Positions 1,034 through 32,611 of a DNA stretch of 34,504 nt are shown piece by piece. The notes beneath the pieces are model-generated. The model saw only the letters and a program-made list of their open reading frames with translations, did no database searches and was not told where the DNA came from. Made by a program: the position numbers and the translations under genes. Positions within the stretch are counted from its first letter, which is position 1; the number at the start of each line of letters is the position of its first letter. The DNA lies in the IMG/VR virus record IMGVR_UViG_3300047474_000958, positions 1 through 34,504 of that record; one strand, given 5' to 3'. This stretch comes from a virus.

Positions 1034-1224
1034 GCCTCTCACATGATAATCTGGTAAACCATTTTAAAACAAACTTTGCTATGATGCAGCATCATAACTA
1101 TAGTTTAACTGAATTAGATGGTATGTTACCATGGGAGAGGGAGATATACGTTACTCTTCTTAGTGAACATATCAAAGAAGAGAATAGAAAAGCTGAACAA
1201 CAGCAAAGGAAAATGAACCGATGA
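1027..1224 (+). CDS. -1 frame extension of the gp26-like gene (gp51/gpT-like C-terminal part)
   Basis: After slippage this frame adds 65 residues. It contains SLTELDGMLPWEREIYVTLL and ends in a charged helix rich in E, K and Q. The motif 'L..MLPWERE.....L' recalls the C-terminal parts of frameshifted tail assembly chaperones (lambda gpT type). Its stop TGA overlaps the ATG of the next gene (ATGA at 1221-1224), which shows that this frame is translated up to that point. In-frame ATGs at 1081 and 1084 have no ribosome site, so independent initiation (47 aa) is less likely than frameshifting. Positionally it could also be named gp51, which follows gp26 in T4, but it is far shorter than T4 gp51. 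Confidence 0.6.
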   Translation, partial: YLSLSHDNLVNHFKTNFAMMQHHNYSLTELDGMLPWEREIYVTLLSEHIKEENRKAEQQQRKMNR

Positions 1225-1553
1225 GCGAAGAAGAAGTAAAGAGTAGTAACCAAACACATCCGGCCGATACAAACGGTGATGGTAAGGTTTCGAAAGAAGA
1301 ACACGATATGTATCTTGAATTTAAGCGTAAAGAACTTGATGACCAAGACGCTATGCGAGATGCTCAACGTAAGATGGCATGGTTTTCATTAGGTGGTATG
1401 TTACTATATCCATTCGCAGTTGTTTTAGCCAGTTTAGTAGGTTTAGATCAAGCACAAAAAACATTAGGAGATATGGCTCCTACATATTTCGTAGCTGTCG
1501 CCGGTATTGTAGCAGCATTCTTTGGTGCTCAAGCATTTTCAAAAGGTAAATAA
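1221..1553 (+). CDS. Small membrane protein with one canonical EF-hand loop
   Basis: This protein of 110 residues has a hydrophilic N-terminus carrying a textbook calcium-binding EF-hand loop at residues 16-27 (DTNGDGKVSKEE, with D1, N3, D5, G6, V8 and E12 positions all met). A charged helix follows, then two hydrophobic segments (about residues 53-72 and 87-103). The ATG overlaps the upstream stop by four bases, so translation is coupled to the frameshift product. The gene sits between the chaperone-like gene and the tape-measure candidate, suggesting a tail or virion role, perhaps membrane contact at DNA delivery. A holin is an alternative because of the two membrane spans, but the late tail context favours a structural role. 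The function is not established. Confidence 0.65.
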   Translation: MSEEEVKSSNQTHPADTNGDGKVSKEEHDMYLEFKRKELDDQDAMRDAQRKMAWFSLGGMLLYPFAVVLASLVGLDQAQKTLGDMAPTYFVAVAGIVAAFFGAQAFSKGK

Positions 1554-11258: not shown

Positions 11259-13109
11259 TTACGGTACCTTTTTAGGGCTATATATGGTTATTTGTTCATC
11301 TTTACCCTTTACCTTGATTTTCCCTATCTCTGAACAGACATATCCTGAAGGTAATTGTTTATAGGTAAAGCTTGATATGATGGTCTTATAGTCTACATAT
11401 TCATGACGGGCAGCTGTGGCCTCGAGCCTTGCTGCAAGATTAACTGCGTCTCCGATGACTGAATAATCAAATCTGGATTCAGAGCCCATGTTACCAACAA
11501 TACAAGTCCCGGTGTTAATGCCAGTACCAACATTAATATCAGGAAGACCACGTTCTTCGTAGATTCCTTTGAGTTCATTTACTTCCTCTTCTATTTCTAT
11601 AGCTGATTTGACTGCCATTTCAGCATGATTATCACAGGGTAATGGAGCGTTCCAAAACGCCATTATACAGTCTCCCATGTATTTGTCTATAGTTCCACCA
11701 TTATTAAGAATGATTTTTGTCATCTTATCTAGGAATTCATTAACTAATTCGACTAGTCCTTCTGGGTCATCGTTATTTTTATAGTGTTCTGATATAGGAG
11801 TAAACCCACATATATCCATAAAAAGAAATGTCATTTCCTTTCGTTCTCCACCAAGTTTTAACATGCCTGGGTTTTTCTGTAATTGTTTAACTAGATCTGG
11901 AGATACGTATGTACCAAACTGTTTCTTAATTTGTTGTCTTAATATGAATTGTTTATAGAATTGACTAAAGCTCGTTGAAGTGAGCAATATTATATATATT
12001 AATAGAGAAGCGGTTAAGTCGAGGAGTATCTTAAATTCGTACCAAAAGTACCAAGAAGAAAATACAGATCCGGCAACGATCCCGGCGAAGATCGCAATCC
12101 CATAATAAATCGAAAGATAAGACATAGCAAGGATTATCAGTGTCGATCCCACAGCAATTAGACCTATTTCCAGAGTATCTGCCCATACAGGACGAGATAT
12201 CGAAGAACCATCCATCACACCCTGTACAACTGAAGCTTGAATTTGGTGAGGATAGTATAACCCCTGAGGAGTGGGAAGCTGCGGAGCAACTCCTTTTGCA
12301 CTCAAACCGATTATTACAGTCCTACCGTTCAAATTAGGTAATGGTTCACCATATTCTATTTCATCAAATGTATAATTTGTATTTAACCATATTGTACCAT
12401 TTGAATCTGTCTTCATAGGTTCATACGGTGGAATCATTACGTCAACTATTCCATATTCCTCTACGTTCATTGTATAAGATTTCTTATCTTGTAAAACTCT
12501 TATTATCTCAAGCGCAAAAGATGGATAAAGCTGGTTATTTACTTGACTTATTAGCGGTATTCTTCTTGTTATGTTATCTACTTCTTGTGCTGCATTAATA
12601 AGACCTACACCCCAAGCTTGTTCTTCTAACTGAGATATATTAGTTACTAATCCATCATATTCATACGCAAAATTATATGGATCTCCAATTCCTTTTACAG
12701 CAGTTCCAACATAAGGTGCCTTTTTACTTCTTCCGTTTGAGTCAGCATCTTGTGCTAATATAATACCATTGTCTTTTATCCAAGAAGCGAATACTTTATC
12801 TCCACCAAACCTATCAGCTTCTGGAAACATAAAGGTAAACGCAATCATACCAGCATTTGCATTACGCAAATCTGATATCATTTGAGCGTATGTTTGTCTA
12901 GGGAATGGATATTGACCAAGTTGTTCTAATGAATTTTCGCCTATGTTTAAAACTACTATTTGATCTGATTTCTTATCTGGTAGTGATTGTATATATTGAT
13001 CAAATGTAATTAAACGAACCTGTTCAACCAATGGCAGATCAAAAACTCTTAATCCTAAAAGCCCGACAAATAAGAAAACTGTAGTCCAAATACTAGTTAT
13101 ATATTTCAT
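11259..13109 (-). CDS. CHASE2-domain class III adenylate cyclase
   Basis: This is a 616-residue membrane enzyme predicted to make cAMP from ATP. Order of parts: a membrane segment at about residues 5-22; a CHASE2 extracytoplasmic sensor at about 25-300 with typical elements (DQIVVLNIGENSLEQLG, VDNITRRIPLISQ, YPSFALEIIR, GRTVIIG); three membrane spans at about 312-380; and a cytosolic class III cyclase domain at about 425-615. The metal-binding aspartates are D432 (FMDICGF) and D480 (YMGD). The ATP-type lysine is K476, and the transition-state pair is N557/R561 (VNLAARLE). Ser550 stands where many eukaryotic enzymes have Asp, as in bacterial class IIIb. All catalytic residues are present. The gene ends the late curli operon and overlaps the previous gene by four bases. 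Receptor cyclases are very unusual in phages. Confidence 0.95.
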   Translation of the reverse strand: MKYITSIWTTVFLFVGLLGLRVFDLPLVEQVRLITFDQYIQSLPDKKSDQIVVLNIGENSLEQLGQYPFPRQTYAQMISDLRNANAGMIAFTFMFPEADRFGGDKVFASWIKDNGIILAQDADSNGRSKKAPYVGTAVKGIGDPYNFAYEYDGLVTNISQLEEQAWGVGLINAAQEVDNITRRIPLISQVNNQLYPSFALEIIRVLQDKKSYTMNVEEYGIVDVMIPPYEPMKTDSNGTIWLNTNYTFDEIEYGEPLPNLNGRTVIIGLSAKGVAPQLPTPQGLYYPHQIQASVVQGVMDGSSISRPVWADTLEIGLIAVGSTLIILAMSYLSIYYGIAIFAGIVAGSVFSSWYFWYEFKILLDLTASLLIYIILLTSTSFSQFYKQFILRQQIKKQFGTYVSPDLVKQLQKNPGMLKLGGERKEMTFLFMDICGFTPISEHYKNNDDPEGLVELVNEFLDKMTKIILNNGGTIDKYMGDCIMAFWNAPLPCDNHAEMAVKSAIEIEEEVNELKGIYEERGLPDINVGTGINTGTCIVGNMGSESRFDYSVIGDAVNLAARLEATAARHEYVDYKTIISSFTYKQLPSGYVCSEIGKIKVKGKDEQITIYSPKKVP

Positions 13110-13372
13110 GAAAATTTTCTTTGAATATATTTAAAAATTGCGTATATGGATAAACCATAAAAAGCTAATACACTCATTGGTAATGCTATATATGCCAACT
13201 CCCATGGAGTTAAAAATAATACTTGCCATGTAAAATCAGCAACCGCTTGAGCATCACTGATTTCTGCCATTTCTAATTCACCACTTAGATCTATTTCGTA
13301 TTCATTTACAAAATCATACCACTGTTCGTCAGTCATGCAAATCATATCATCTGGACATTTAAATTCTTCCAT
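13106..13372 (-). CDS. Small single-span membrane protein between curlin and cyclase
   Basis: The product has 88 residues: an acidic N-terminus with a C-x5-C pair (CPDDMIC), then a Trp-containing amphipathic segment, one membrane span at about residues 57-80 and a basic end (KYIQRKFS). A strong AGGTGAG ribosome site precedes the ATG, and the stop overlaps the cyclase start (ATGA). Its fixed place next to the CHASE2 cyclase suggests a partner or regulator at the inner membrane. No family is recognised. Confidence 0.75.
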   Translation of the reverse strand: MEEFKCPDDMICMTDEQWYDFVNEYEIDLSGELEMAEISDAQAVADFTWQVLFLTPWELAYIALPMSVLAFYGLSIYAIFKYIQRKFS

Positions 13373-13374
13373 TA

Positions 13375-14106
13375 TTACTCACCTTGTTGAACGCTTATAG
13401 TACATCCACTAACTGTAATACAATTTTGTGTTAGACTATAACTTTGAGTTGTTGTTCCTAATTGTTTTAATATTAAATCAGTACCATATGACCCATCAAG
13501 CGTTATACTCGCAGTGTGTGTTGCACCATTACCTTTTTGCCGAATAAACACATCATTATAGTCATTATAAATTGTCAGATCTATGGTTTTTTCACCATCA
13601 CTTTGTTGCTTTATTTTAACTTCGTTACTATCACCAGCTAAATGTAAATCAAAGTCATGGCCGTCGGTTGAATTTGATTGGTTTGTTTGTTGTACTGCTA
13701 ATTGATTATAGTCACCATACATAGTAATATCAATTTCATGGCCACCACCTTCGAAACTATCATAGTACCACGTTAAATCAGTATCAGAATCAAGTGTATT
13801 CCAAGCACAACCTTGGCAAAGTTTCATTTGATTACCAGTACCACTTACTTCATCAAATATAATTGTATTAGGATTAGCATTAGGGTTTCCATTTATTTGT
13901 ACCAAGTATAAACTAAGACTTGATGCAGTAATATATGAATTACTGTCTAACATTTTAATTTCGTTACTATGGCCTTGCTGCTCTATACCTAATAGCAGAT
14001 TATCACCTGACTGTTCTATATTTATTGAATTATCATCCGCCTTGGCGAATGGTGATAATAACAGACTGACCATCGCCAACGATAATATTATTCTTTTTTC
14101 CTTCAT
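13375..14106 (-). CDS. Curlin-repeat secreted protein (CsgA/CsgB-like), copy 1
   Basis: The 243-residue product begins with a Sec signal peptide (MKEKRIILSLAMVSLLLSPF, cleavage after AKA near residue 23). The mature chain opens with the curlin pattern (SINIEQSGDN, then LGIEQQGHSN). Later repeats include NQLAVQQTNQSN, EVKIKQQSD, DVFIRQKGNG and LILKQLG. This alternation of short strands, Gln, Gly and Asn is the signature of amyloid-forming curli subunits. Two cysteine pairs (CQGC and CITVSGC), absent from E. coli CsgA, may form disulfides. The chain ends CTISVQQGE, again a curlin-type strand. The start overlaps the FecR gene by 74 bases and has a weak ribosome site. Export through the CsgG protein of the same operon is inferred. 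Confidence 0.85.
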   Translation of the reverse strand: MKEKRIILSLAMVSLLLSPFAKADDNSINIEQSGDNLLLGIEQQGHSNEIKMLDSNSYITASSLSLYLVQINGNPNANPNTIIFDEVSGTGNQMKLCQGCAWNTLDSDTDLTWYYDSFEGGGHEIDITMYGDYNQLAVQQTNQSNSTDGHDFDLHLAGDSNEVKIKQQSDGEKTIDLTIYNDYNDVFIRQKGNGATHTASITLDGSYGTDLILKQLGTTTQSYSLTQNCITVSGCTISVQQGE

Positions 14107-15196
14107 TTTCTGTGTCCAAAGTTACGTTAGATCCTATCGGTATTCTAATCGATACGATTCCATTTACTTCTCTATAAAACCATATTTGACCAGCGCCCTG
14201 ATCTATGATAGTATTGTATTGAGTATCTTTATCAAATCCTGGAGCAATAGTTCCTATTATATCACTACCATCACCAGCACCAGCAGTTTTTCTATTGAAG
14301 ATACTTACTTCTTCCAGCGCCACCAAAACATCTTGTAAGAAATCGACGTCAAGTAAATCCATATCGAGTTCATTAAACTCTAAATCGTCTTCAGCTAAGT
14401 AATCATCAGCTAAGTAATCTGTATCGAGATCAGTGAAATCGAGAATATTGTTATCAACATTCCCAGTTCCATTTGTTCCTTCATCTTCTCTTTCTTTAAT
14501 TTCATCTGGTGGACTCACGATAAACATATTGTCTATCATATTTAAATTTATATTATTTAAAACAATTGGTTTAGTTGGTATAGTACTAATACTTGACACC
14601 ATTGTAGCTTGATAAGCTTCGGTTAAAGTTACAACTCCACCTTCGTTCGTTACTGTTATTTCTCCGCTTGGAGAACAATCACCATCAATAGTACATTCTG
14701 TTTCTGGTAGAAGTATAATTAGACTTCTTCCTAATTCATCTACTGATGTTGAAAAATCTGTACCCCTAATACCAATAGACGCAGTAGGAGTTTCAATTTT
14801 TATATTTTCTTTTGGTACTAATCCTAGTCTACCAGTAGAAAATCTAGCTGTTCCGGAAACAAAATTCATAGCCATTCTGGAATCAGCTTTTTTGTTTGGA
14901 TCATAATAATATTCGGTTAACGTTACTTCTGTATGCTCAGTTAATCTTACAACTGAATCATCCAAAAATTTCATTAATAATCTGCCGTCGACAGTTTGAA
15001 CATGGTCCATTTGTTGGACACCTAATCCAAGTTCAGTGATGATACTCTCACCTTGACGAGTTATACCACCACTGCCCTTGTGTTCTTCTATACCGCCTAT
15101 ATCATCAGCAAAAGCTACTGAGCTTAATAATAAACTAGTCGCCAGTATCTTTTTGCTTAATGTTAACAACAGCGTTTTCAGAATCAAATTCTGCAT
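14033..15196 (-). CDS. FecR-domain secreted protein
   Basis: The 387-residue product starts with a signal peptide (KKILATSLLLSSVAFA, cleavage near residue 30). Residues about 35-190 match the FecR domain: G-rich start, VQTVDGRLLMKFLDDSVVRL, an FVSGTARFSTGRLG strand, and IETPTASIGIRGTDF. A very acidic low-complexity stretch follows (about 250-290, with LADDYLAEDDLEF). The C-terminal domain ends SVIITIRQGG, like a curlin strand. FecR domains are periplasmic sensors or surface proteins, and they occur beside CHASE2 cyclases in some bacterial genomes. The ATG at 15196 has GGAG six bases upstream. The gene overlaps the curlin genes on both sides (62 and 74 bases). A C-x5-C pair (CTIDGDC) is present. 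Confidence 0.88.
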   Translation of the reverse strand: MQNLILKTLLLTLSKKILATSLLLSSVAFADDIGGIEEHKGSGGITRQGESIITELGLGVQQMDHVQTVDGRLLMKFLDDSVVRLTEHTEVTLTEYYYDPNKKADSRMAMNFVSGTARFSTGRLGLVPKENIKIETPTASIGIRGTDFSTSVDELGRSLIILLPETECTIDGDCSPSGEITVTNEGGVVTLTEAYQATMVSSISTIPTKPIVLNNINLNMIDNMFIVSPPDEIKEREDEGTNGTGNVDNNILDFTDLDTDYLADDYLAEDDLEFNELDMDLLDVDFLQDVLVALEEVSIFNRKTAGAGDGSDIIGTIAPGFDKDTQYNTIIDQGAGQIWFYREVNGIVSIRIPIGSNVTLDTENEGKKNNIIVGDGQSVIITIRQGG

Positions 15197-15863
15197 TAAT
15201 TACTCCATAACAACTGGTTATGCCTGTTGGACAAGTTCCAGATGATTGTAATATATCAATATCTCCATTACTACCAGTCCATTCCATTGTAAGAGACTGA
15301 TAAGCACCGTCTGACTGTGTTGTCAAAAAGTCATTAGAACTACCAATAACATCAACATTCCACGTTACATCATCTGCTTCGATATCAATATTCCAAGTAT
15401 TTGAGCCACCTGTAATATCTAAATCAAAGTCCAATCTTTCTGACGAAGCCGAATAACCCCAATCTATATCGAAGGTATTAGAACTTCCAGATATTGCAAC
15501 ATCAACGTCTGAACTATCAGCACTTCCACCGTAACCTACATTCCAGTCCCACACATTTGAATTCCCTGTTAATGATAAATCAACAGTTGTAGAATCAAAT
15601 AATGTCGGTCCATATATTTGGTTAAGATTACCAATCATATCAATATCAATAGTTAATGTATTACCAGTTAGAACCCAATCAGAAGCACAAGCTCCTGAAG
15701 ATACTGATCCACATAATTTATTGCCATAACCTACTTGGTCTATGGTTAAATTAAGCGTATCACCACTTTGATCTAGTAATATTTCATTATCATTAGTTCC
15801 AGCGTGTATTAACACAGGGCATAATAAAAGAGTAAATGCTATAAATTTATTCAACATTTTCAT
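15135..15863 (-). CDS. Curlin-repeat secreted protein (CsgA/CsgB-like), copy 2
   Basis: The 242-residue product has a signal peptide (MKMLNKFIAFTLLLCPVLIH, cleavage after HA near residue 21). The mature start EILLDQSGDTLNLTIDQVGY parallels copy 1 (INIEQSGDNLLLGIEQQGH). The centre is a regular beta-solenoid-like series with GNSN, GSSN, GGSN and GSSN turns each followed by a WD- or FDID-type strand. The end (VVNIKQKDTGD) is again curlin-like. Two cysteine pairs (CGSVSSGAC and CPTGITSC) may staple loops. GAGGAAAATAAAA precedes the ATG, and the start overlaps csgG by 17 bases. The Asp/Asn/Ser-rich central repeats differ from the Gln/Asn ladder of CsgA, so this could be a nucleator or a surface adhesin rather than the bulk fibre. 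Confidence 0.85.
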   Translation of the reverse strand: MKMLNKFIAFTLLLCPVLIHAGTNDNEILLDQSGDTLNLTIDQVGYGNKLCGSVSSGACASDWVLTGNTLTIDIDMIGNLNQIYGPTLFDSTTVDLSLTGNSNVWDWNVGYGGSADSSDVDVAISGSSNTFDIDWGYSASSERLDFDLDITGGSNTWNIDIEADDVTWNVDVIGSSNDFLTTQSDGAYQSLTMEWTGSNGDIDILQSSGTCPTGITSCYGVINAEFDSENAVVNIKQKDTGD

Positions 15864-16755
15864 TTTTATTTTCCTCTATCGCGTGAGAATCGTTTGTTCC
15901 ATCATCCTGATGGGGGTGACGATGCCCCGCTTCTATTTTCCAAAATCCTCTGTCGTGACCTTGGTATATTAGTTCCAAAACGGCAGCTTCAATCGTTGAT
16001 CGCAGCGATCTGGTTACCGATTCATTTTCAGTCATACCATCTTCTATTTCTACAAGGTTGGTACTCATATCGATAAATTTAAAAACATCGTAGCCACTTG
16101 CAACAGACAATATAGTCTTCGATGTTTGCACATTTAATAAAATCTCACCCGTCAATGTGCTAACGGCTCTTAAATGTACAGTTACTATGTCTCTTCTATA
16201 AGCTCTTTGTGAACCTACTCCAAGATATCTAGCTCCTGCTCCACCAGTCTCTATGTTAGTGTCAAATCCTATAACACCTCCTTCGAGAATAATACCGGCA
16301 AATAGTAAGGGCGCTAACCCAGTTTCATCCTCTTCACCGTACTGTTGTCTTGTTGTTCTAACAATTTGTCTTTCTCTTGTTAAATGGTCTATACCTACTC
16401 TTTCAACTACTCTAAACCATTTACCTCTACCTGCTGTTTTCAAAGCATCGATTAACATTGTGTCCGATCCTTGTGATACTGCAGTACTAAACATTGCTAC
16501 ATCGCCTTTTTGTTTTCTTTGACCAGTCTGATCATTAAACTTATAAACAGCTACAATTGGCTGTTTCTCTGGAGATGGCAACTCCAATAATTCTTGGTGT
16601 GTAGGTAAATGCACCACCACTGGTTTTTCTACACATTCACCCATAATTTTCATTAATCCTTTAGTACAACTATCAGTCATACTCGGAATTGAAGCACAGC
16701 TTGTTAATGTTGCTATGGCAATCAATGCACTTAGCTTTTTAACCACCTGATCCAA
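15847..16755 (-). CDS. csgG: Curli secretion channel lipoprotein CsgG
   Basis: The 302-residue protein is clearly a CsgG family member. CsgG forms a nonameric outer-membrane pore that exports curli subunits. A lipoprotein signal ends in LTSC (C20). Matches to E. coli CsgG include VAVYKFNDQTGQRK, MFSTAVSQGSDTML, WFRVVERVGIDHL, GGAGARYLGVG, STLTGEILLNVQTSKTIL and DRGFWKIEAG. In the constriction, F89 matches the conserved Phe of E. coli (NFSTAV), but the neighbouring Asn is Met and the Tyr site is changed. A His/Asp/Glu-rich tail follows. The start codon is not ATG: TTG at 16755, or GTG at 16746, which would give MVKKLSALIAIATLTSC. It overlaps csgF by 17 bases. Confidence 0.97.
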   Translation of the reverse strand: MDQVVKKLSALIAIATLTSCASIPSMTDSCTKGLMKIMGECVEKPVVVHLPTHQELLELPSPEKQPIVAVYKFNDQTGQRKQKGDVAMFSTAVSQGSDTMLIDALKTAGRGKWFRVVERVGIDHLTRERQIVRTTRQQYGEEDETGLAPLLFAGIILEGGVIGFDTNIETGGAGARYLGVGSQRAYRRDIVTVHLRAVSTLTGEILLNVQTSKTILSVASGYDVFKFIDMSTNLVEIEDGMTENESVTRSLRSTIEAAVLELIYQGHDRGFWKIEAGHRHPHQDDGTNDSHAIEENKNENVE

Positions 16756-17269
16756 CGCTACCAGCTCCTATTGGAATAACAATGGTTGTTTCAGATCCTT
16801 CGGAGTCAGTAATGGTCATAATAATAACATCTTCGCCTTGATTACATGCATACAAAGAAGCATCACATGTAGTTCTTTGATAGTTAATAGTATTTCCTTC
16901 AATAACAAAACTACCAAAGTTAGATACTGAACATGTTGGATCTGCAATATCACATTGTCTAAATAAATTTTCTACTAAGTCTTTACTAATTTGAGCATAA
17001 ATTCTACTTTCTAAATTTCTCATAAACTTAGCTAGGGTTGTGTTTTCGGCATCTCTTTGTGCTTGTAATAGAGCTGATTCTATATCATCTGCTATTGCTT
17101 TCTTACGAGAAAATTCTTGATTCTCGATAGTTAAATAATGCGAAGAAGTACCTATACCACTAAAAGAAGGACTTTTAAACTTATGAACTAATTCATCTGC
17201 AATTGCAATCTGTGCAGTAAAAAATAGTATTATAAGTAATACTCCTAAATGTGTTCCACTAATTTTCAT
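16739..17269 (-). CDS. csgF: Curli assembly factor CsgF
   Basis: The product has 176 residues with a signal peptide (MKISGTHLGVLLIILFFTAQ, cleavage near AIA). The mature start DELVHKFKSPSFSG matches the CsgF start (MTFQFRNPNFGG) that inserts into the CsgG pore. The LAKFMRNLESRIYAQI helix and the final TITDSEGSETTIVI strands also match. It is longer than E. coli CsgF (138), with an insertion containing two C-x6-C pairs (CDIADPTC, CDASLYAC). The ATG at 17269 has AGAAGAG before it, and a GTG at 17296 is less likely. CsgF and CsgG adjacent and overlapping indicate a working secretion-nucleation pair. No CsgE gatekeeper is found nearby. Confidence 0.9.
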   Translation of the reverse strand: MKISGTHLGVLLIILFFTAQIAIADELVHKFKSPSFSGIGTSSHYLTIENQEFSRKKAIADDIESALLQAQRDAENTTLAKFMRNLESRIYAQISKDLVENLFRQCDIADPTCSVSNFGSFVIEGNTINYQRTTCDASLYACNQGEDVIIMTITDSEGSETTIVIPIGAGSVGSGG

Positions 17270-17516
17270 TTTCTCTTCTCTTTTTTTCGTTTTCACGATA
17301 TTCTAATACAACATCAACCTTCTGTTGTAGACGTATTAAATCTTGATCTAACATCCGTGTCTGATCAATAACTCTTATAAGAGCAATATGCATCTTTTCT
17401 AATGCAGGGTCTATCTTTTCATTTATAAATTGCCAAATAAAGAATATAAAGTAACCCATTCCAACAGCCATTATAATTGGAAATCCGTAATCGGATATTG
17501 CTTGTGCTATATCCAT
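17259..17516 (-). CDS. Small membrane protein, holin/YvrJ-like, copy 2
   Basis: The product has 85 residues: a short N-terminus (MDIAQAISDYGFPIIMAVGM), one membrane span to about residue 30, then a long charged helix (LIRLQQKVDVVLEYRE) ending in Lys/Arg/Glu/Asn. The 'IsdyGFPi' start and layout resemble small phage YvrJ or BhlA-type holin-like proteins. It resembles the gene before it in layout (an acidic 'ADVGAPIAG' start and a single span), suggesting a diverged pair. The two genes are joined by a TAATG overlap, and the end overlaps csgF by 11 bases. It could be a holin, or an inner-membrane partner of the curli module. Confidence 0.7.
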   Translation of the reverse strand: MDIAQAISDYGFPIIMAVGMGYFIFFIWQFINEKIDPALEKMHIALIRVIDQTRMLDQDLIRLQQKVDVVLEYRENEKKRRENEN

Positions 17517-17812
17517 TAGTCTCTCCTGACGTCGAGTTTTCCATCCTCTATAAAGTTTTCTGCGCGGGCGACTCTTTCAATATCAGGTCGTAATTCTAAA
17601 GCAGATGAAACTAACATATCAATTTTTATCATTTCATTACTCATTGTTCTGGCTCGATTTTCTAAACTCTCACAAAAAATAGTAAGTGTTTTAATTTGGT
17701 CTACTATACCTTCTAGTATTTGTTTTAGTACTAGAAAAATAAAGAAACCCATGACTAATGCACCCGCAATAGGCGCACCAACATCAGCAATTAAAGTTAA
17801 AATCTCGCTCAT
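17516..17812 (-). CDS. Small membrane protein, holin/YvrJ-like, copy 1; likely leaderless
   Basis: The product has 98 residues: MSEILTLIADVGAPIAGALV leads into one membrane span (to about residue 31), then a helical tail (LENRARTMSNEMIKIDMLVS) and an acidic/basic end. It is the first gene of the curli operon. The ATG lies only five bases after a TATAAATA late promoter, where the T4 late start point would fall on the A of the ATG itself, and there is no ribosome site. A leaderless mRNA is therefore predicted. Its layout is similar to that of the next gene. Confidence 0.7.
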   Translation of the reverse strand: MSEILTLIADVGAPIAGALVMGFFIFLVLKQILEGIVDQIKTLTIFCESLENRARTMSNEMIKIDMLVSSALELRPDIERVARAENFIEDGKLDVRRD

Positions 17813-17817
17813 GTAAC

Positions 17818-17825
17818 TATTTATA
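17818..17825 (-). promoter_or_regulatory. T4-type late promoter of the curli/cyclase operon
   Basis: An exact TATAAATA octamer on the - strand lies between the IscA gene and the first holin-like gene. From here to 11259 all nine genes overlap or nearly touch, and no other promoter is evident. Late expression of the curli module is predicted. Confidence 0.7.
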
Positions 17826-17833
17826 AGGTTGGA

Positions 17834-18154
17834 TTATTCGAAATGAACAGAAACACCACATCCACATGCCATTGAAACATTTGGATTGGCGAATTTAAAC
17901 GATGTGTTTAAACCTTCTTTTTGAAAATCTAGGGTACTACCTTTTAAATAAGGTAATGAATCTGGATCTATGACGATAATAAACTTATCAAAGTCTAGAA
18001 TATTATCGTCTTGATTGATAGACTCGGCGAATTCTATGATATACTCATATCCACCACAGCCACCACCAGTTATTCCAACTCTAATAGCTGGGTCTAACAT
18101 TTCGTGGGTTTTTATCAGAAGATGCTTAATAGCCTCATCTGTAAGCTCGATCAT
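17834..18154 (-). CDS. A-type iron-sulfur cluster carrier (IscA/HesB-like)
   Basis: The product has 106 residues with the three conserved cysteines of A-type carriers: C33 in GGGCGGYEY and C97/C99 in ACGCGVSV. The DEAIKHL start and the 'DPDSLPYLKGSTLDF' strand also fit the fold. These proteins hold and deliver Fe-S clusters and are common auxiliary genes of marine T4-like phages. The gene overlaps the upstream small gene by one base (TAATG) and is probably driven by the late promoter at 18426. Why a phage needs it late is not known; a virion or host Fe-S protein is a possible client. Confidence 0.93.
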   Translation of the reverse strand: MIELTDEAIKHLLIKTHEMLDPAIRVGITGGGCGGYEYIIEFAESINQDDNILDFDKFIIVIDPDSLPYLKGSTLDFQKEGLNTSFKFANPNVSMACGCGVSVHFE

Positions 18155-31051: not shown

Positions 31052-31369
31052 TTATTTATTCTTTTTTTCTAGTTTCTCTATTCTATCTATCAAGTCTGGA
31101 TATGCATCAAATTCGTGTAACTCTTTACAAGGATGAGAATTTTGTTCTAATTTATCTAATCTTTCAGCTTGGAGAGGATATTGTTTTCTAAATTTAGAGT
31201 CTTTTTTAGCTAACTCTAAATCATATTTTTCAGCAAAGTGCTGCATAAATTTATCTACTTGCTTTTGAAACCATATACCCATTTTGGTACCTTGGAACCA
31301 ATTGTAGAAAGATGAACCAATAACTGAACTTAAAATAGACTTCAGTGATAGTATTAAGAGAAAATACAT
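31052..31369 (-). CDS. Membrane-anchored helical protein, conserved-looking (105 aa)
   Basis: The N-terminal 18 residues (MYFLLILSLKSILSSVIG) form a membrane anchor or signal. The following helices contain GIWFQKQVDKFMQHFAEKYD and a RLDKLEQNSHPCKELHEFD segment, and the end is a short coiled coil (RIEKLEKKNK). The 'KYD.EL' and 'LEqNSHP..eLHEF' parts are familiar from marine T4-like phages. It overlaps the lipase gene by one base (TAATG) and probably shares its unit. A role in lysis or membrane change fits the neighbours but is unproven. Confidence 0.75.
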   Translation of the reverse strand: MYFLLILSLKSILSSVIGSSFYNWFQGTKMGIWFQKQVDKFMQHFAEKYDLELAKKDSKFRKQYPLQAERLDKLEQNSHPCKELHEFDAYPDLIDRIEKLEKKNK

Positions 31370-32124
31370 TACTTAGCCTTTTTAAGTTTATTCAAAGCTT
31401 TTACATAGTTTGGCATGCCATGGTCAACAATACCATCAAAGAATTTCCATCTCTTCCAAGAATTTAAAACACCTTTAAGTAAGTCTTTCCATGTTGGTTT
31501 AGGTTGTCTTACACCATCTGCATTAAAGTAAATCATTTCTCCATGGTGTCTAAATCCTAACCATGCTGGAGGAATTCTACATACGATGTCATTATTGTTC
31601 ATGAATCTGTAGTGTTTACATTTGATGTTTTTGATGAATTTTGGTCCTCCGACTCTTGGTGATCCAAAGGTGAAGAGTTCAAGAGGTTCATGACGTGTGG
31701 CACTAATAGTAGCCATAGCAGCACCCAGACTATGCCCAGTAAAATATACATCTTTTTTAACCTTTAGTTGATTGTTATGTTCTATTTCTGCTAATACATC
31801 CATCCATAAGTCATTTACTTCTTTTTGAAATCCACTATGAACTTTTCCACCAGCCAGAGCTGCGCCTTTAATTACATTAAGGTCAGCCATTACATCATTT
31901 AATTTAGAAGGTTCAGTACCTCTAAATGCAAACCAAAGATCATTACGATCTTTAGCAATAAGTACTTCAGCACCATCTCTAGAAACTAATTTTGCCCATG
32001 GAAACCCAAGCTTTTTACAATCAGCAATTGCTGCCTTTTCAGACTTATATGCTATTGCAGATAGTTTCGCGGCTACTACTGCTCTCCCCCATTTATTCTC
32101 TTGATCTTTAATTCTTGTCGCCAT
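31369..32124 (-). CDS. Class 3 lipase-like alpha/beta hydrolase
   Basis: The start at 32124 has GGAG seven bases upstream (251 residues). Catalytic triad candidates are S132 in YFTGHSLGAA, D179 in NNNDIVCRIP and H235 in VDHGMPNYV. The oxyanion region FAFRGTEPSKLNDVMADLN is typical of class 3 lipases. No signal peptide is seen; the N-terminus is basic (KWRNK upstream of the chosen start). Such lipases occur in marine T4-like phages and could free fatty acids or disturb the membrane at lysis. The gene overlaps the spanin-like lipoprotein by 17 bases, which supports a lysis-related cluster. Confidence 0.9.
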   Translation of the reverse strand: MATRIKDQENKWGRAVVAAKLSAIAYKSEKAAIADCKKLGFPWAKLVSRDGAEVLIAKDRNDLWFAFRGTEPSKLNDVMADLNVIKGAALAGGKVHSGFQKEVNDLWMDVLAEIEHNNQLKVKKDVYFTGHSLGAAMATISATRHEPLELFTFGSPRVGGPKFIKNIKCKHYRFMNNNDIVCRIPPAWLGFRHHGEMIYFNADGVRQPKPTWKDLLKGVLNSWKRWKFFDGIVDHGMPNYVKALNKLKKAK

Positions 32125-32611
32125 CTTGTTTCTCCACTTTAATTTCAACTGCTCCAGCTTCTTCATCATTTATCGTTACATTCCTATAGTAAACTATCAC
32201 CTCACCGAGCTGATTAATATATCTTTTAATTTCTTGCGTATTATAAGACATAAGCTCATAATCGGCAACTGTCATAGCGTAGAATACAATATCTCCACCA
32301 TGCTTCTTTTTAATATCTTCGATAAATTTATCGAGATATGTATGTCCTTCTGGGTATAGATCTTCTCTACCTAATTTACAATCAGGTTTTTTAGTCTCTG
32401 GATTCTTTAGACAATTCTCAATTATCTTCGCATCAGATACTACATACCATTTGGGTTCTTTTAAATCTATTGATCTTGGTAATGTTGGTTGAACAATATC
32501 AATTTTAACCGGTTTTGTTACAATTTCAACTTCTCTTGGAGCCTGTTGTAATAGACTACAACCACTAATCGTTAAGAGAGCTAATACGCTGACTATCTGC
32601 TTCAATCGCAT
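32108..32611 (-). CDS. Outer-membrane lipoprotein, putative o-spanin
   Basis: A lipoprotein signal (MRLKQIVSVLALLTISGC, C18 acylated) is followed by a Pro/Val-rich stretch (REVEIVTKPVKIDIVQPTLP), typical of o-spanins. A folded domain of about 100 residues with a CLKNPETKKPDC pair and an acidic C-terminus follow. The start at 32611 has AAGGAGG six bases upstream, inside the previous gene. The 47-base overlap with the coiled-coil membrane gene resembles overlapping Rz/Rz1 pairs. At 167 residues it is larger than most o-spanins, so it may do more than bridge the membranes. A plain structural lipoprotein is the alternative. Confidence 0.65.
   Translation of the reverse strand: MRLKQIVSVLALLTISGCSLLQQAPREVEIVTKPVKIDIVQPTLPRSIDLKEPKWYVVSDAKIIENCLKNPETKKPDCKLGREDLYPEGHTYLDKFIEDIKKKHGGDIVFYAMTVADYELMSYNTQEIKRYINQLGEVIVYYRNVTINDEEAGAVEIKVEKQDGDKN

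Follow-up and report, generated by a model that had tools for sequence, protein, structure and literature searches.

A marine virus fragment of 34.5 kb carrying T4-type genes (IMG/VR record IMGVR_UViG_3300047474_000958, positions 1 to 34,504, all of which is referred to here as the window) encodes a catalytically complete, CHASE2-containing class IIIb adenylate cyclase (AC) as the last gene of a curli (T8SS) operon preceded by a T4-type late promoter. The enzyme is under purifying selection, and its pairing with a FecR-domain protein recurs in phages equipped with a second kind of exporter. We see about an even chance that the AC is a late, membrane-bound homodimer that serves as a periplasm-facing export sensor and signals through cAMP, either to a noncanonical receiver or in hosts that possess a canonical one. 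The features of the operon are listed below, with hol1 and hol2 being names given in the present analysis.

11259..13109, minus strand: AC, 616 aa, consisting of CHASE2, three transmembrane (TM) helices, and a class IIIb adenylate cyclase (Pfam, catalytic residues, AF2, PDB fold match)
13106..13372, minus strand: 88-aa single-TM protein, found in 15 loci (no Pfam or PHROG family)
13375..14106, minus strand: Cur2, curlin-repeat secreted protein, CsgA/B-like (Curlin_rpt, E 1.3e-7)
14033..15196, minus strand: FecR-domain protein with an N-terminal signal-like helix (FecR, E 9e-10; AF2; fold match)
15135..15863, minus strand: Cur1, curlin-like secreted protein (weak Curlin_rpt, E 0.08; position and family conserved)
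15847..16755, minus strand: CsgG, outer-membrane curli secretion pore (PF03783, E 1.8e-51)
16739..17296, minus strand: CsgF (PF10614, E 1.4e-9)
17259..17516, minus strand: hol1, 85-aa TM plus coiled-coil protein (no Pfam family; kept beside T8SS and T1SS modules)
17516..17812, minus strand: hol2, 98-aa TM plus coiled-coil protein, first gene of the operon (no Pfam family)
17818..17825, minus strand: T4-type late promoter TATAAATA, at -13 relative to the hol2 start codon

Pfam assigned residues 16-325 of the AC to CHASE2 (E 1.7e-37) and residues 424-608 to Guanylate_cyc (E 1.1e-20). An N-terminal TM helix (residues 7-23) is followed by the periplasmic CHASE2 domain, three TM helices (about 309-331, 334-359, and 366-385), a linker, and the cyclase at 424-608. 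This layout, with CHASE2 held between one N-terminal and three further TM helices, is that of a CHASE2 receptor, and it bears out the initial annotation of this DNA, which had placed a sensory CHASE2 domain in the periplasm. Structure prediction, which the same annotation had proposed as a check, yielded an AF2 monomer model (pLDDT 89, pTM 0.73) composed of one N-terminal helix, the CHASE2 α/β domain, three further long helices, and a cyclase with the fold of known adenylyl cyclases (TM-score 0.90 to CyaB of P. aeruginosa, 3r5g, and 0.86 to CyaC, 1wc1). PHROG 35576 matches the AC over its entire length (E 4e-196), which places the full-length protein in an already recognized phage family. Given such small E-values and a gene order kept in dozens of phage contigs, this picture of domains and neighbors is not a product of chance.

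The claim of catalytic completeness, originally made for D432, K476, D480, N557, and R561, stands: all five are present in the AC, as is S550, a second substrate residue that was absent from that list and follows the class IIIb pattern. D432 and D480 are the two metal aspartates, K476 and S550 form the substrate pair of Lys plus Ser/Thr, and N557 and R561 are the transition-state Asn and Arg. A Lys together with Ser/Thr is the mark of class IIIb adenylyl cyclases. In pairwise matches, the position of K476 is taken by Glu in the guanylyl cyclase Cya2 (2w01) and by Lys in its artificial phytochrome-regulated form 6fht, and ATP is thus the expected substrate. A single chain carries both halves of the active site, which is what homodimerization requires. 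The AC is predicted to be a homodimer with ATP cyclase activity. Few residues decide substrate choice in class III enzymes, and Pfam and the phage annotations alike read adenylate/guanylate; nevertheless, the fit of K476 and S550 to the adenylyl cyclase pattern and the contrast with Cya2 make it extremely unlikely that the product is cGMP or another cyclic nucleotide instead of cAMP.

Conservation of the active site extends well beyond the window. D432, K476, D480, and R561 are invariant in 83 aligned phage genes, and S550 and N557 occur in 82 of the 83, the single exception being the copy in Methylophilales phage Melnitz (L003:9001-11052). The cyclase half of the Melnitz protein is strongly diverged and displays I475, E540, D550, and S557, with I475, D550, and S557 replacing D, S, and N; judged from these substitutions, its activity may be changed or lost. 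All six residues are invariant in the 73 genes of a second, sister phage clade, which leaves the catalytic set intact in 155 of 156 phage genes when both clades are pooled, and the six are likewise kept in 80 of 80 bacterial relatives, five of which carry Thr in place of Ser at position 550. The median pairwise dN/dS of the whole AC is 0.20, with values of 0.13 for the cyclase, 0.09 for the linker, 0.21 for CHASE2, and 0.42 for the TM block; the corresponding medians for CsgG, the FecR-domain protein, and the phage ssDNA-binding protein are 0.21, 0.31, and 0.13.

In the phage operons, the gene order is hol2-hol1-CsgF-CsgG-Cur-FecR-(Cur)-AC, and the AC, in last place, is separated from the preceding gene by a median gap of 3 nt. 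The pelagiphage T8SS module set of CsgF, CsgG, curlin repeats, FecR, and AC is found complete within the one operon; the CsgD regulator and the CsgE gate, which belong to the classical curli operon, were not among the families that Pfam returned for the operon proteins scanned. The FecR protein and the curlin-repeat proteins are neighbors of the AC as first described, with Cur2 clear and Cur1 weak by Pfam. Linkage to curli genes is not universal in this branch, as the T8SS-clade ACs at L068:2466-4403 and L079:2456-4393 lie in stretches where curli genes were not detected, and the former comes after a reductase-like gene, away from visible curli genes. Cur1, the FecR-domain protein, and Cur2 (13375-15863, minus strand) share a similar short C-terminal strand (VVNIKQ, VIITIRQ, and TISVQQ, respectively), possibly an export or assembly signal.

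Expression late in infection, originally a guess, is supported by the promoter. In 32 of 49 loci, the 60 nt preceding hol2 contain TATAAATA, most commonly at -13, compared to 1.05% of random windows; upstream of internal operon genes, the motif is found in just 0 to 4 loci. Across the whole window, the motif is not more frequent than expected by chance, and only its position ahead of the operon stands out. If the T4 geometry holds, the transcription start would coincide, exactly or nearly so, with the hol2 ATG, and the -13 spacing in many loci predicts a leaderless late mRNA.

Components of this system have been described before. Pelagibacter phage HTVC008M encodes a full-length homologue of the AC with 44.5% identity (gp019, YP_007517885.1, annotated as "adenylate/guanylyl cyclase") and shares the CsgF-CsgG-curlin-(FecR-like)-curlin-AC order and the T4-like setting; the window differs in its additional 88-aa TM gene before the AC and in its diverged sequences. 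Melnitz gp104 is 35% identical to the AC and lies in an operon of the same order, with the differences being the diverged cyclase half and the substitutions given above. A curli cluster was reported in pelagimyophages (PMC7029224), and a 2022 study (PMC9599517) describes, for podo- and myophages, a T8SS module that includes FecR and an adenylate cyclase and has the same components as the window. Where that study placed a "histidine kinase", the window has the two small upstream genes hol1 and hol2 (17259-17812, minus strand); Pfam found no kinase domain in either. The same study reports the absence of the CsgE gate from pelagiphage modules and discusses cAMP by analogy with E. coli, where cAMP-CRP drives csgD. 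The suggestion that the cyclase represents a new phage strategy consequently has to be withdrawn, given the annotated homologues in HTVC008M and Melnitz and the module described in PMC9599517. In its accessible part, that study says nothing on the late promoter, on the pairing of FecR with type I secretion (T1SS) in phages, on the absence of a cAMP receptor from phage and host, or on any cellular operon with matching gene order. Of most use among the new results are that FecR and CHASE2 are paired alongside two different exporters, that a late promoter precedes the operon, and that no cAMP receiver could be identified.

The FecR-domain protein (14033-15196) is predicted by AF2 with moderate confidence (pLDDT 71) to comprise a signal-like helix at residues 2-24 and a β domain from residue 34. 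A FecR profile retrieved no homologue among PDB sequences; FecR/PupR domains emerged only from the fold search, in which the β domain matched PupR-type structures in their periplasmic domain only. It also matched the cell-surface anchoring domain 5ix9, over 66 residues at 1.2 Å. The protein is probably periplasmic or exported. Assignment as a FecI/FecR-type anti-sigma regulator was rejected, as the protein starts with a signal-like helix and lacks a cytoplasmic anti-sigma part, and an iron-dependent label is not justified by the sequence.

A sister clade with a different exporter was found by scanning with the AC of the phage-like contig L086. In this large clade of marine phage contigs (L179:513-9923, L201, L214, L219, and others within L173-L252), the AC belongs to a T1SS operon, in which it comes after the genes for a FecR-domain secreted protein, an OEP/TolC-type outer-membrane protein, a membrane protein resembling PrtD, and HlyD, usually with hol2/hol1 at its flanks. 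A FecR domain is present in 7 of 7 giant secreted proteins with an intact N-terminus, three of which are identical copies, and some of the FecR-domain secreted proteins also bear cadherin or RTX repeats. The PrtD-like phage protein measures only about 250 aa (L179:6197-6949 and L086:3950-4696), and an ABC ATPase domain was not detected in it. The contigs L175 and L238 possess both kinds of exporter with a separate AC for each. Phylogenetically, the phage ACs constitute one clade (support 100) with T8SS-linked and T1SS-linked branches, to which there are a few exceptions in linkage. Because the T1SS operons also pair a FecR domain with a CHASE2-AC, the constant element is this pair and not curli. 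The proposal that the enzyme monitors curli export or the envelope accordingly survives in its link to export and the envelope, whereas FecR plus an export system fits better than curli alone. A search of the accessible literature for phage T1SS with adenylate cyclase returned no relevant paper.

FecR is also over-represented, about 12-fold, near the closest bacterial CHASE2-ACs. A FecR domain lies within 10 kb of the AC at 18 of 80 bacterial loci, compared to about 1.5 expected (P about 4e-14), and 13 FecR-linked loci remain versus 1.4 expected when Thalassospira loci are collapsed. The expectation derives from the measured density in 25 of the same genomes (98 FecR domains in 85.3 Mb), a sample that included known positives, so the enrichment estimate is conservative. 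Upstream neighbors of the bacterial ACs (n=61 scanned) comprised 18 ABC exporters, 7 HlyD, 7 FecR, and 5 cNMP-binding proteins. In two small marine alphaproteobacterial genomes, the gene directly before the AC encodes HlyD fused to an N-terminal cNMP-binding domain (L155:8234-9949 and L163:1500-3218). After the AC comes a gene for a small cNMP-binding protein, and the cluster also encodes a FecR-RTX protein. We infer that, in these two loci, the exporter itself is very probably a target of cAMP. Judging by its N-terminus, L124:2753-4477 resembles such a fusion. No relevant paper on cNMP-HlyD fusions beside CHASE2 was found in the accessible literature. An apparent Acinetobacter "phage" match (L004) was set aside, being surrounded by bacterial housekeeping genes.

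One cellular locus reproduces the phage operon. A Caulobacteraceae MAG contig (L085:5992-12049; GC 57.5%) encodes CsgF-CsgG-curlin-curlin-FecR-AC in the same order as the phages, flanked by glycosyltransferase-like and TonB-receptor-like genes, and in the tree its AC forms a long branch among those of T8SS phages. The idea that curli operons of Alphaproteobacteria normally include FecR and AC was rejected, since neither occurs at five other curli-type CsgG loci; the published view of the two as noncanonical thus largely holds, with this MAG as the one cellular exception. Its identical order, like the substituted Melnitz active site, would suit an AC that is a functionless passenger of an export module taken whole from a bacterium. 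Retention of the catalytic set in all but one of the pooled phage genes and the low dN/dS argue against such an origin without function, which we regard as very unlikely.

In the favored model of a late export sensor, the AC, encoded at the end of the phage curli operon, would be a product of the late phase of infection, and its periplasmic CHASE2 domain would most likely respond to the condition of the curli substrates and of the FecR-domain protein encoded alongside as export proceeds. The three TM helices and the FGxYVSP linker would then relay the signal and activate conversion of ATP to cAMP. It is gene neighborhood that points to FecR as the putative CHASE2 ligand. In Sinorhizobium meliloti, CyaD1, CyaD2, and CyaK are CHASE2 class III cyclases that, like the proposed phage sensor, perceive an external protein signal, which reaches them via an outer-membrane barrel partner (PMC13001267); their output is the CRP-family regulator Clr, and a curli operon is not described there. 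The Burkholderia BiofilmReg operon, which has a biofilm phenotype, encodes a LysM-FecR protein plus a CHASE2 histidine kinase (PMC5192318). This is an independent pairing of a FecR-domain envelope protein with a CHASE2 sensor, as in the window; signaling there runs through a histidine kinase and response regulator instead of cAMP. The FecR-CHASE2 pairing offers a specific, testable guess for the CHASE2 ligand. A more general version, possible though on the unlikely side, is that CHASE2 plus FecR forms an export checkpoint in which CHASE2 cyclases directly sense periplasmic FecR-domain secretion substrates and cAMP controls the same exporter. Phages would have taken up this circuit twice, for curli and for T1SS, with a noncanonical cAMP receiver, and if true, it would run in hosts otherwise without cAMP signaling.

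The receiver of the signal is a concrete question, as most SAR11-family genomes have no apparent cAMP receptor. The cNMP-binding domain PF00027 was found in 0 of 9 phage records including HTVC008M and Melnitz and in 0 of 12 sister-clade records, hence in 0 of 21 overall, some of which are fragments. In the family of G329, 138 of 147 genomes lack this domain, although incomplete genomes and diverged receptors may hide some, and the other nine have it. We take this family to be SAR11, as the 16S genes of G329 and G240 match four SAR11 probes. The two PF00027 matches that were read (L318 and L319) resemble FNR-type regulators with N-terminal cysteines. A host class III cyclase was not found in the family, the two matches over the cutoff being phage-type ACs in phage-like loci. 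With PF00027 missing from most of these genomes, a cAMP-CRP response is improbable in a SAR11 host, which leaves a noncanonical receptor or hosts that have a canonical one. The idea of late second-messenger signaling is retained as regards late transcription, and a classical receptor response in a SAR11 host is an unlikely form of it.

Binding of phage cAMP to a host Crp-like regulator that changes host transcription is fairly unlikely for the same reasons, and the curli operon moreover carries its own late promoter. What speaks for it is the intact class III AC and the existence of some streamlined marine alphaproteobacteria that each have two cyclases besides 4-6 cNMP-binding proteins and could host some of these phages. 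The scarcity of receptors could also mean that the product acts outside cytoplasmic signaling, either as an ATP drain or as cAMP released to neighbors as the envelope opens. Late expression and the CsgE gate's reported absence (PMC9599517) are in keeping with this. However, an unregulated drain has no need of the conserved periplasmic sensor and linker, and bacterial relatives bear cAMP-binding domains on the exporter; we hold an action outside cytoplasmic signaling to be distinctly unlikely. Should the sensor model be correct, a late, sensor-controlled second-messenger enzyme tied to surface-fiber export would allow the phage to monitor, and perhaps time, the remodeling of the dying cell's surface, and phages of this kind are widespread in the ocean.

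As host indicators, NrdA and gp32 were uninformative: NrdA matched best to jumbo phages that infect enterobacteria and xanthomonads, and gp32 retrieved T4-like relatives only. Neither tRNAs nor riboswitches or other known RNAs were found in the window. It also encodes a class 3 lipase (31369-32169, minus strand), a small EF-hand-like protein (1221-1553, plus strand), and an IscA-type iron–sulfur protein (17834-18154, minus strand).
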